Source: Clostridia bacterium (GTDB lineage: Bacteria > Bacillota > Limnochordia > DTU080 > RSA5). Taken from it: a DNA stretch of 64,000 bases. The position numbers and the translations under genes were made by a program. The notes under the pieces are model-generated. The model saw only the letters and a list, made by a program, of their open reading frames with translations. It did no database searches and was not told the DNA's origin. Below, piece by piece: positions 60,054 through 64,000 of this stretch. Numbering within the stretch: the stretch's first letter is position 1; every line of letters starts with the position of its first letter. The stretch covers positions 62,001 to 126,000 of the forward strand of contig PKEX01000017.1 of NCBI GenBank assembly GCA_002919235.1, given 5' to 3'.

Positions 60054-60890
60054 ATGGGCCTTTGGCAGAAGCTGACCAACAACCGCTTCTTTAAGTCGAT
60101 CTATCGCGAAGGCTATCCGGATACCGACCGCAAGCGGGTGATGGTGGTCATCAACAGCCTCGCGCTCCACCTGCACCCGGTGCGGGTCCCCAAGAAGGCG
60201 CTGCGGGTGAGCTACACCTGGGGACTGGGCGGCCTTTCGGTCTGGATGTTCGTCATCTTGACCATCACCGGCGTCTTTTTGATGTTCTACTACATCCCCT
60301 CGGTCAAGGACGCCTGGTGGTCGATTATCAACATCAACACCAGCGTCTACTTCGGCTCGTTCATGCGGAACATGCACCGCTGGGCCGCGCACGCGATGGT
60401 CATCCTGGTCCTGCTGCACATGACGCGCGTCTTTTATACCGGGTCTTACAAGCCGCCGCGCGAGTTTAACTGGGTGTTGGGAGTCGTCCTGCTCACGGTC
60501 ACCTTCCTGCTGAGCTTCACCGGGTACCTCCTCCCGTGGGACCAGCTGGCGTACTGGGCCATCACCGTCGGCGCCCAGATGGGCGGCTCGACGCCCATCA
60601 TCGGCAAGCAGATCAACGTCGCGCTGCTGGGGGGCCATCAGATCGGCCAGCCGACGCTGATTCGCTGGTACACGCTGCATGTCATCTTCCTGCCTCTGAT
60701 CATGATCGTCCTGGTCTCGATGCACTTCTGGCGCGTGCGAAAGGACGGCAACATCTCGACGCCGGTCTACGCCGCGCCGCCTGAGGAAGAAGAGGTTCAG
60801 GAGCTGCCTGCCGCGCGAGCCGACGCCCAAGAGGAGGCGGAGGCCGCGGCGCCGGAAGGCGGCGATGAGGAGCCGGAGCCGGAGTCGTAA
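60054..60890 (+). CDS. petB: menaquinol:cytochrome c reductase cytochrome b6-like subunit
   Basis: The cytochrome b subunit of a quinol:cytochrome c reductase, with four membrane helices. The two heme-b His pairs are H108/H122 (HRWAAHAMVILVLLH) and H209/H224 (HVIFLPLIMIVLVSMH). The second pair has 14 residues between the His, as in b6-type cytochromes. The position of the cysteine that binds heme ci in b6f and Bacillus QcrB is Gly57 (TWGLGG); the whole protein has no Cys. After the last helix there is a 45-residue acidic tail (PPEEEEVQELPA onward). 278 residues, ATG 60054. Confidence 0.93.
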   Translation: MGLWQKLTNNRFFKSIYREGYPDTDRKRVMVVINSLALHLHPVRVPKKALRVSYTWGLGGLSVWMFVILTITGVFLMFYYIPSVKDAWWSIININTSVYFGSFMRNMHRWAAHAMVILVLLHMTRVFYTGSYKPPREFNWVLGVVLLTVTFLLSFTGYLLPWDQLAYWAITVGAQMGGSTPIIGKQINVALLGGHQIGQPTLIRWYTLHVIFLPLIMIVLVSMHFWRVRKDGNISTPVYAAPPEEEEVQELPAARADAQEEAEAAAPEGGDEEPEPES

Positions 60891-61007: not shown

Positions 61008-61745
61008 ATGGCACGCGTGTTGCAGCACGAGGAAGAGGAACGGGTTATCGAGGATCCCGGCGAACGGGTTCACGTGTGGCCGCACCTGGTCAGCATCGAG
61101 CTGGTGGGGGCCCTCATTTACCTCTTGGCCCTCAGCTTAATGGCCATCTTGATCCGAGCGCCCCTGGTCGACCTGGCTAACCCCGAGGTGACGCCCAACC
61201 CGGCCAAAGCGCCCTGGTACTTCTTGGGCCTGCAGGAGCTTCTCCTGCACATGCATCCCGCCTTGGCCGGCGTCATCGTCCCCGGGGCCGTGCTGATCCT
61301 GCTGGCAGCCATCCCGTACATCGACCGCTCGCGCGTGGGGACCGGCATCTGGTTCAGCACGCCGAAGGGCCTTCCCATCACCAAATTCTCGGCTGTGTAC
61401 ACGGCGGTCTGGGTGATCGGCCTCGTTTTGCTGGACGAGTTCCTGCCGGCGGGCGAGGGAGCGCACGGCATCAGCCCGCTGCTGGAGCTGTACGGCTTTC
61501 CGCCGGCGGTGGGCGATATCTTCGTCCCCCTGGTGTTCATGACGTTCATCCCCTGGTCGCTCGCGGTCATCGTCAAGCGGCGCTGGAACGCGAACACCCG
61601 GGAGATCATCATCGCGCTGTACACCTTCTTCCTTGCGTCGTTTGTCGTGCTGACGGTGATCGGCACGGCGTTCCGCGGGCACAGCATGCAGCTGGTCTGG
61701 CCGTGGGAGATCGGCACGCCTGAAGGGGTCATGGGCCACTACTGA
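61008..61745 (+). CDS. petD: menaquinol:cytochrome c reductase subunit IV-like protein
   Basis: The second half of split cytochrome b, with the quinol-site loop. Membrane helices are LVSIELVGALIYLLALSLMAIL, GVIVPGAVLILLAAIPYI and others (about 3 in the family core plus two more at the C-end: FVPLVFMTFIPWSLAVIV and YTFFLASFVVLTVIG). The Qo-site motif usually PEWY is APWYFLGLQELLLHMHP; the glutamate is replaced. 245 residues; ATG 61008 after GAGGAGG. Confidence 0.9.
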   Translation: MARVLQHEEEERVIEDPGERVHVWPHLVSIELVGALIYLLALSLMAILIRAPLVDLANPEVTPNPAKAPWYFLGLQELLLHMHPALAGVIVPGAVLILLAAIPYIDRSRVGTGIWFSTPKGLPITKFSAVYTAVWVIGLVLLDEFLPAGEGAHGISPLLELYGFPPAVGDIFVPLVFMTFIPWSLAVIVKRRWNANTREIIIALYTFFLASFVVLTVIGTAFRGHSMQLVWPWEIGTPEGVMGHY

Positions 61746-61832
61746 TGCCCTGCCCCGGCGCCGGCCGCCGGCGTGAGCGGGCGGCGCGCGGCCGGGCCGC
61801 GCCCAGGTATCACGGTAAGGAGGATCGTCACC

Positions 61833-62336
61833 TTGGCGGACGACAAGGATCGCACCGAACAACTTACCGATGAGGAAAGGAAACGCCGCAGCTTCTTGCG
61901 GAAAGTGATGTGGTCGTCGGCGGGTTTGGTCCTGGCCGAATCGGCCCTTGCCGGCCTGGCCCTTTTTTGGCCGCGAAAGGTCCAGGGATTCGGTTCGGTG
62001 ATCCGGGCGGGGCGCATCCAGGATTTCGAAGTCGGCAGCGTCACGCGGTTTCGCGACGGCAAGTTCTATCTGTCGCGCCTTCCCGAAGGCTTTATCGCTC
62101 TCTACTGGAAGTGCCCGCACCTGGGGTGCACGGTGCCGTGGGATCCGTCCAGGGGGCAGTTTGCCTGCCCCTGCCACGGCTCGATCTATGAACCGACGGG
62201 CCAGAACGTGGCGGGGCCTGCGCCGCGGCCTATGGACTACATGGAGATCCAGATCCGCGGCGACGAGATCTGGGTGAATACCGGAGCCATTTTCGAGCGC
62301 CGGGTGCACTCCGACGAGCACGTCACCAAGGTGTGA
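61833..62336 (+). CDS. petC: Rieske [2Fe-2S] protein of the cytochrome bc complex
   Basis: The Rieske subunit. One N-terminal membrane anchor (VMWSSAGLVLAESALAGLALFW) follows a charged N-terminus with an RR-like SFLRK twin region (ERKRRSFLRK), as in Tat-inserted Rieske proteins. The cluster ligands are CPHLGC and CPCHGSIY, with the two disulfide cysteines. The TTG at 61833 lies 9 bases after TAAGGAGG; the open frame to 61773 is not coding. 167 residues. The gene is third in its operon; in many bacteria it is first. Confidence 0.94.
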   Translation: MADDKDRTEQLTDEERKRRSFLRKVMWSSAGLVLAESALAGLALFWPRKVQGFGSVIRAGRIQDFEVGSVTRFRDGKFYLSRLPEGFIALYWKCPHLGCTVPWDPSRGQFACPCHGSIYEPTGQNVAGPAPRPMDYMEIQIRGDEIWVNTGAIFERRVHSDEHVTKV

Positions 62337-62376
62337 GCCGGGGCGCGCTCGCAAGACCCGGCGAGGAGGATGAGCC

Positions 62377-62481
62377 GTGTTTCAGGTTTCCGAATCGGTC
62401 GAGCTGCTCTTGGTCTTTTTGATGATCGTCGTCGCCCAGGCGGCGCTCTACTTCATCGGGCGGTGGATGGATCGGCCGTAA
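62377..62481 (+). CDS. 34-residue single-span membrane peptide in the bc operon
   Basis: A very short gene between petC and the cytochrome c gene. GTG at 62377 is preceded by GCGAGGAGG (about 6-8 bases), and it ends in TAA at 62481. The peptide has a short polar N-end, one hydrophobic helix (ELLLVFLMIVVAQAALYFIG) and the basic end RWMDRP. It is too small for automatic calling but its ribosome site and place in the operon support it. It resembles, in size and topology, the small subunits PetG, PetL, PetM and PetN of cytochrome b6f; sequence similarity cannot be judged by eye. Confidence 0.75.
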   Translation: MFQVSESVELLLVFLMIVVAQAALYFIGRWMDRP

Positions 62482-62529: not shown

Positions 62530-63519
62530 GTGAGGGGTAAACGTTATCTCGCAGTCACTGTCTTAGCCTGGCTGACCATCATCGTACTCGGATGGTACTT
62601 TATCTACGACCAAAGCCGGATGGAGCGCGCCGAGGCGCAGCACAAGGCGCAGCTGGCTTCGATCGGCGCCATTCTCTATGCGGAAAACTGCGTGGTCTGC
62701 CATGGTCCCGTGGGTGAAGGCGTCGTCGGGCCTCCCCTCAACGTCGACAGCTTCCGGGCCGATCCGGACGAGAACCGTGAGGTGTACGATCTGATCCACC
62801 GCACCATCGTCCATGGCCGCCCGGGCACCAGCGATCCGCACTGGGTCAGGCTGGGGAACGGCATGTGGGCCTCGTACACGGCCATGCCGGCGTGGGGCGA
62901 GGAGGCCGGAGGGCCCATGAACGACCTCCAGACCGCAGCGTTGGCGCACTTTATCATGATGGGCGATTGGAACCAGGTAGGCCGGCACATCCCCGCACCG
63001 GCACCCTGGATTGATTCGGCAACCGGTCAAGTGATGTGGGACCGGATGCCCGATGCAGTGGGCATCCCGGCCGAGGCGTCGCAGCGGGGCAAGGAGATCT
63101 TTGTGAACAGGGGCTGCGTCGCCTGCCACACCCTGGGCCAGGTGGGCGGCTACGTCGGGCCTGATCTGACCAAGGTGGGTTCATGGGGCCTGGACGAAGA
63201 GTTCCTAAAGCAGTGGATTAAGGACCCGGCGTCCGTCGTGGAGCGAGCGCCGCGCTACTGGTCCAACTACGGGGGGCCGTACCAGTTCCCCGTCCTGGCG
63301 TCCCACGGCAGCGACGCCCTGCGCAGGACCACGGCGGCCGACGAGATCGGCCAGACGGGAACGCAAGGGTTCGGGGAAAGGGCCGATGGCACCGCCGGCG
63401 CGCTGCCTGACTTCCCGATTCCCAACACGCAGTCGCTGCCTCCTACTACCATGCCTGCGCTGGGCCTGACGGACGAAGAGATCGAAGACCTGGTTTACTA
63501 CCTGCTGAACTTGAAATAG
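62530..63519 (+). CDS. petA: membrane-anchored diheme cytochrome c
   Basis: A 329-residue cytochrome c with an N-terminal membrane anchor (LAVTVLAWLTIIVLGWYF). Two CXXCH motifs (C54-C57-H58, CVVCH; C196-C199-H200, CVACH) lie in two domains. Axial Met candidates are in YTAMPAWG and TTMPALG. GTG 62530 follows AAAGGAG by 9 bases. Diheme c of this type is known in heliobacterial cytochrome bc complexes, where it arose by domain duplication. It is the last known subunit in this operon. Confidence 0.93.
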   Translation: MRGKRYLAVTVLAWLTIIVLGWYFIYDQSRMERAEAQHKAQLASIGAILYAENCVVCHGPVGEGVVGPPLNVDSFRADPDENREVYDLIHRTIVHGRPGTSDPHWVRLGNGMWASYTAMPAWGEEAGGPMNDLQTAALAHFIMMGDWNQVGRHIPAPAPWIDSATGQVMWDRMPDAVGIPAEASQRGKEIFVNRGCVACHTLGQVGGYVGPDLTKVGSWGLDEEFLKQWIKDPASVVERAPRYWSNYGGPYQFPVLASHGSDALRRTTAADEIGQTGTQGFGERADGTAGALPDFPIPNTQSLPPTTMPALGLTDEEIEDLVYYLLNLK

Positions 63520-63599: not shown

Positions 63600-64000
63600 T
63601 TGCGGCGATGGGTTCCCGTGTTGGTGCTGGCCTTCGTGGTCGGCGCCCTTTTTCGCCTAGGAAACGAGCTGGGCGTCGCGGTCCTGCGCATGTTCGGCAC
63701 CCAGGGGATCGTCATCATCGGGATTCTCGTCGCGGTGAACCTCAAGCGGCTGCAGGCCGAAGACGGATTGCGGCGGCTGGAAGAACAGCTGCAAGCGCTG
63801 CCGGACAGGGTGCGTGTCCAGGCAGTACGGGGCCCGGGCCGCCCGCCGTTGTGGCTGGTGGAGGCGGATGGGCGGCGGGTGCTCGTGGGCACCAGCGACC
63901 TCGCGAATTCGGTGGGCGCGGGCCGGGCGTGGCGGCTGCTCTGCCGCCGCGCGGAGGAGCTGGCTCAAGCAGCCCGCGCCCATGGACTCGCACCCGGCGA
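63600..64000 (+). CDS. membrane protein of unknown function, 3' truncated
   Basis: An open frame from the TTG at 63600, running off the window end. GGAGAGGAG lies 10 bases upstream. Two membrane helices are predicted at the N-terminus (WVPVLVLAFVVGALFRL and GIVIIGILVAVNLKRL), then a soluble helical region (LQAEDGLRRLEEQLQALPD). The rest has a Gly/Arg-rich pattern (VRGPGRPPLWLVEADGRR). No family is recognised. It is about 80 bases after petA and may be in the same operon. Confidence 0.6.
   Translation, partial: MRRWVPVLVLAFVVGALFRLGNELGVAVLRMFGTQGIVIIGILVAVNLKRLQAEDGLRRLEEQLQALPDRVRVQAVRGPGRPPLWLVEADGRRVLVGTSDLANSVGAGRAWRLLCRRAEELAQAARAHGLAPG

Follow-up and report, generated by a model that had tools for sequence, protein, structure and literature searches.

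The window, a stretch of 64,000 nucleotides, carries near its end a cytochrome bc operon whose Rieske and diheme cytochrome c genes are separated by a gap of 193 bp. This gap holds an open reading frame of 34 codons, which raises the question of whether so short a frame is a gene and, if so, what its product does in the complex. The frame runs from a GTG start codon to a TAA stop codon, encodes MFQVSESVELLLVFLMIVVAQAALYFIGRWMDRP, and lies seven nucleotides downstream of an AGGAGG ribosome-binding site. The original prediction had noted the start codon, the strong AGGAGG site, a single transmembrane helix and the position between the Rieske and diheme cytochrome c genes, all of which we found as described, and had likened the product to the small subunits PetG, PetL, PetM and PetN of cytochrome b6f. 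The gene order of the operon is cytochrome b, subunit IV, Rieske, peptide and cytochrome c.

Table 1. Coordinates of the bc operon in the window and of short frames upstream of Rieske genes in heliobacterial-type operons
Feature	Position	Strand	Evidence
Cytochrome b, b6-like N-terminal four-helix part	60054..60890	+	Pfam PF00033 E 9.7e-46; NCBIfam ExtP-type b cytochrome 305 bits
Subunit IV-like C-terminal cytochrome b part	61008..61745	+	Pfam PF00032 E 4.8e-9
Rieske iron-sulfur protein	61827..62336	+	Pfam PF00355 E 1e-7; NCBIfam b6f iron-sulfur subunit 2e-21, under its cut-off
AGGAGG ribosome-binding site of the 34-aa peptide gene	62364..62369	+	sequence
34-aa single-span peptide gene	62377..62481	+	conserved frame, dN/dS about 0.13, AlphaFold2 helix
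Diheme cytochrome c, N-terminal membrane anchor	62530..63519	+	Pfam PF00034 E 3.5e-19; two CxxCH motifs
64-87 aa frames upstream of Rieske	L089:85-303, L090:98-316, L094:85-330 (minus strand numbering), L095:146-379, L107:13-207		

The cytochrome b of this operon scores above the cut-off of the NCBIfam ExtP model (305 versus 290 bits), which describes proteins of selenite/tellurite reduction operons. Because a Rieske protein, a subunit IV and a cytochrome c adjoin it, the complex is a bc complex despite this score, and the ExtP model perhaps misnames cytochromes b of bc operons such as this one. Downstream of the cytochrome c gene, a frame of 177 residues lies at 63600-64000 and continues past the window end (L154:7101-7634). 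It combines hydrophobic N-terminal segments with a soluble part, has no Pfam match, and follows cytochrome c in most such operons of both classes described below; it may be a further accessory component.

The length of the 34-codon frame alone is no proof of a gene in this GC-rich DNA, where the 6 kb around it hold 66 frames of at least 25 residues. Comparison across genomes decided the matter. A tblastn search of 60 relatives recovered the peptide in 13 further genomes (E <= 0.0015), always between the Rieske and cytochrome c genes, and Shine-Dalgarno-like sites also precede the orthologues. Pooled over 11 independent close pairs, synonymous changes far outnumber amino-acid changes (pS 0.402, pN 0.070), and the resulting dN/dS of about 0.13 indicates that close copies of the gene are under strong purifying selection. 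All 36 of the 36 genomes with the operon have the frame in this position, which, together with the substitution pattern, establishes it as a conserved protein-coding gene with a single-helix product. The original prediction had named a conserved position and a synonymous-rich codon pattern in related genomes as support, and both were found; its refuting conditions, a missing frame, stops or frameshifts in relatives, yielded nothing that speaks against the gene.

The 36 genomes belong to two classes of Bacillota. In the class of the window, 14 of 73 genomes encode the operon Rieske protein (E<=3.1e-60), and exactly the same 14 encode the peptide (E<=2.5e-15). In the second class, subunit IV was detected in 21 of 101 sampled genomes (E<=1.1e-49), 19 of which have the peptide at E<=1.2e-5; the remaining two are G471, with a diverged copy in the right gap, and G529, with a peptide fused to cytochrome c. 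One additional genome (G531), in which the contig begins inside the Rieske gene, has the peptide, Rieske and cytochrome c and completes the count. In a sample across the phylum, lineages outside the class of the window had the gene in the corresponding gap, namely G408, G080/G164 and G197; G408 and G080 belong to one class. The subunit IV match in genome G515, at L127 (G515:C1:3254131-3254847), contains one in-frame TGA, which represents either a sequencing error or a split gene.

Clear matches to the full profile among 398 genomes across Bacillota are restricted to the two classes, and so are matches to the subunit IV of the window at E<=1.1e-77 in a sample of 289 genomes. Two genomes outside these classes have weaker relatives of subunit IV (E about 1e-23 to 1e-25), and no peptide was found in about 3 kb around them. 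Sampled genomes that lack the operon gave no clear match, so that the peptide is encoded with, and only with, the complex. Several longer frames (L036-L043, L069, L070, L170-L172) contain weak profile matches, which we took to be fortuitous; those tested with tblastn are not accompanied by Rieske, cytochrome b or cytochrome c. Altogether, the family appears to be specific to a single lineage of bc complexes among the Bacillota sampled, and the peptide is not essential to general bc chemistry, since other Bacillota bc operons do without it. Heliobacterial-type Bacillota operons, with the order Rieske, b, IV and c, have no 34-aa gene. Just upstream of their Rieske genes lies a frame of 64-87 residues, similar among several genomes and apparently with two transmembrane segments, which may be a different overlooked small subunit.

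Members of the family are 33-54 residues long and consist mostly of helix, with N-terminal extensions in some members and acidic C-terminal tails in others. Their consensus is [M]-x-x-V-S-[ED]-[SA]-V-E-L-L-x-V-(about 11 hydrophobic)-Y-F-x-[QDE]-[RK]-W. Across 29 distinct sequences, Glu9 and Leu10 (alignment numbering) are invariant, whereas Glu6/Asp, Val13 and Arg29/Lys are nearly so. The AlphaFold2 model of the 34-residue peptide is a single helix spanning residues 6-31 with a pLDDT of 91.6. The flanks of the helix carry 5 positive and 72 negative charges on the N-terminal side, against 55 positive and 44 negative charges on the C-terminal side. As positive charges are rare before the helix and common after it, the positive-inside rule places the N-terminus outside and the C-terminus inside; flank charges and AlphaFold2 models are consistent in giving one helix with one topology. 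It is thus strongly indicated that the near-invariant acidic pair (Glu6/Asp and Glu9) sits with the N-terminus on the p-side and that the Arg/Lys-Trp end is cytoplasmic, an orientation antiparallel to that of the cytochrome c anchor. A search for a conserved face of the helix was negative, the conservation moment being reached by 2251 of 5000 shuffles, and the packing partner is therefore not readable from the sequence.

A partner is suggested by the fused gene of G529, in which the peptide and the diheme cytochrome c share one reading frame, with the peptide at the N-terminal end. The fusion starts with ATG behind an AGGAGG-type ribosome-binding site of its own. A lead of about 38 residues precedes the peptide helix FVELLLIVLFVGVCEGLLYLFHIW; a short loop of basic character, VTRRGGDPLETR, connects this helix to the cytochrome c anchor, and the two heme domains follow. 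The frame reads on from the peptide helix via RRGGDPLET into the anchor; the in-frame GTG codons found fall inside the two helices, and no suitable separate cytochrome c start lies just before the anchor. AlphaFold2 modelled a helical hairpin, with helices at residues 39-67 and 72-128 joined by a four-residue turn, from an alignment whose rows are cytochrome c only and which gives the first helix no depth. As the heme domains have to lie outside the cell membrane, the peptide helix would run out-to-in and the anchor in-to-out, in agreement with the topology derived from the flank charges. Natural gene fusions are a customary sign that two proteins associate physically, and this one implies that the peptide associates with cytochrome c. 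The fusion occurs in a single draft genome and is possibly an assembly error.

Taken together, the co-occurrence in all 36 genomes, the fixed position, the purifying selection, the topology with the N-terminus on the p-side and the one fusion to cytochrome c make it probable that the peptide is a small integral structural subunit of the menaquinol:cytochrome c oxidoreductase (cytochrome bc complex) of this lineage, and we infer its membership in the purified complex. As such a subunit it would be stoichiometric, with its helix packed beside the cytochrome c anchor and possibly also against the rim of cytochrome b/subunit IV. It may keep the anchors of the c-type cytochrome and the Rieske protein in place and help the complex to assemble and remain stable, a role like that of PetG/L/M/N in b6f and of subunit IIa in ba3 oxidase. 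No cofactor ligand pattern is evident in the peptide, and it is not expected to transfer electrons.

The main rival to a structural subunit is a dedicated assembly or maturation factor, acting transiently on the anchor of cytochrome c or Rieske and gone before the complex is complete. Respiratory enzymes are known to have small assembly factors with a single span, and such a factor would be expected to share the operon position, the co-occurrence and the selection seen here. Two observations render it unlikely: in G529 the peptide is permanently part of cytochrome c, and a chain of 33-54 residues taken up mostly by its helix leaves no space for a soluble functional domain. The peptide might alternatively be a membrane linker or regulator that ties some further partner, for instance the terminal oxidase of a supercomplex, to the bc complex. 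Actinobacterial supercomplexes do contain accessory subunits with a single span. For Limnochordales, aerobic chains with aa3 oxidases have been described (PMC11456536). However, the immediate surroundings of the bc operon showed no oxidase genes, and the fusion partner in G529 is the cytochrome c of the bc complex itself, so that a linker of this kind is quite improbable.

Common ancestry with one of the small b6f subunits, PetG or another, is one version of the structural-subunit reading rather than a separate role, and its probability overlaps with that reading. The peptide resembles PetG in its size, its one helix, its acidic N-terminal end and its C-terminal end bearing Tyr and Arg; some members start with MFEV or MIEV, and plant PetG starts with MIEV. 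The searches point the other way. The peptide is unmatched by the Pfam PetG model (PF02529, cut-off 23.7 bits), for which the best score in the genome is 12.4 bits, elsewhere, and to which a Synechococcus control responds. Fourteen family members gave no match to any Pfam Pet model at E<=10, hhalign of the peptide family against PetG returned a probability of 1.3%, and a PDB profile search with the family retrieved no Pet chain even at E 10. PetG packs through a GG4 motif of Gly8 and Gly12 (PMC1540425), whereas the corresponding positions of our alignment (A3) are Val-type and Leu-type, and GxxxG occurs anywhere in 5 of 29 sequences. Shuffle tests were mixed across PetGs and were judged insufficient for kinship: the cyanobacterial PetG of 2zt9 scored above all 250 shuffles at 6.5 bits and that of 7zxy above 245 of 250, but the scores of plant and algal PetG were unremarkable. 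For PetL, PetM and PetN, kinship was tested via Pfam scans alone, and these short, weakly sensitive models gave no match to the window peptide at E<=1. Given also that other sampled Bacillota bc operons have no match, descent from a shared ancestor is highly improbable. The analogy drawn in the original prediction thus stands as far as a real, single-span gene of the bc operon whose best reading is a small structural subunit, and is not supported as to sequence kinship with PetG. Finally, a frame that arose by chance, or a leader peptide whose only role is to couple translation of Rieske and cytochrome c, would suit the shortness, the gap and the good ribosome-binding site, and is already refuted by the protein-level constraint across two classes, the conserved topology signals and the fusion.

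The peptide also found no family in wider searches: there is no match in Pfam or NCBIfam and no significant relative in the PDB profile search, where PsbW was best at E 0.14. It appears to represent a new small-subunit family. No description of a small subunit in Bacillota bc complexes was found in the literature searched, whose coverage left out most subscription papers. A family of 33-54 residues without a Pfam or NCBIfam model is now defined. Bacterial bc complexes are usually described with three or four large subunits, and here one Bacillota lineage probably has a conserved fifth, single-helix chain, which suggests that small supernumerary helices originated repeatedly in quinol:cytochrome c oxidoreductases. 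With one peptide and one natural fusion, it offers a minimal case for studying the role of such helices.

Among known systems, PetG/L/M/N resemble the proposed subunit: they are single-helix chains of about 29-40 residues in a quinol:cytochrome c oxidoreductase with a split cytochrome b. They differ in that b6f has four such subunits whereas one peptide was found here, encoded in the operon between Rieske and a diheme cytochrome c and not cytochrome f. The CydX/CydS-type subunits of cytochrome bd are stabilising single helices of about 30-40 residues that are often missed by annotation; cytochrome bd, however, is a quinol oxidase, and no relation emerged in Pfam or PDB searches. The closest mechanistic precedent is subunit IIa of ba3 (B-family) oxidases, the detached helix of a neighbouring subunit. 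Subunit IIa has 34-71 residues in bacteria, forms one helix and is often unannotated; in structural terms it supplies the helix that subunit II lacks, and in oxidases without IIa subunit II has two helices (PMC3128077). Both are small, with one helix and a gene adjoining that of a redox subunit, but the enzymes differ, the neighbours of the peptide being bc-complex genes and not oxidase subunit II, and the PxGT/A motif of subunit IIa with its conserved Gly is not reproduced. The cytochrome c of the present complex has a single anchor as a rule, and a fusion of the peptide to it occurs in one genome. We consider the chances evenly balanced that this is an undescribed family of single-helix bc subunits that either began as a second membrane anchor for the diheme cytochrome c or is able to turn into one, a split-anchor arrangement that would parallel subunits IIa and II of ba3 oxidase and be independent of the small subunits of b6f.
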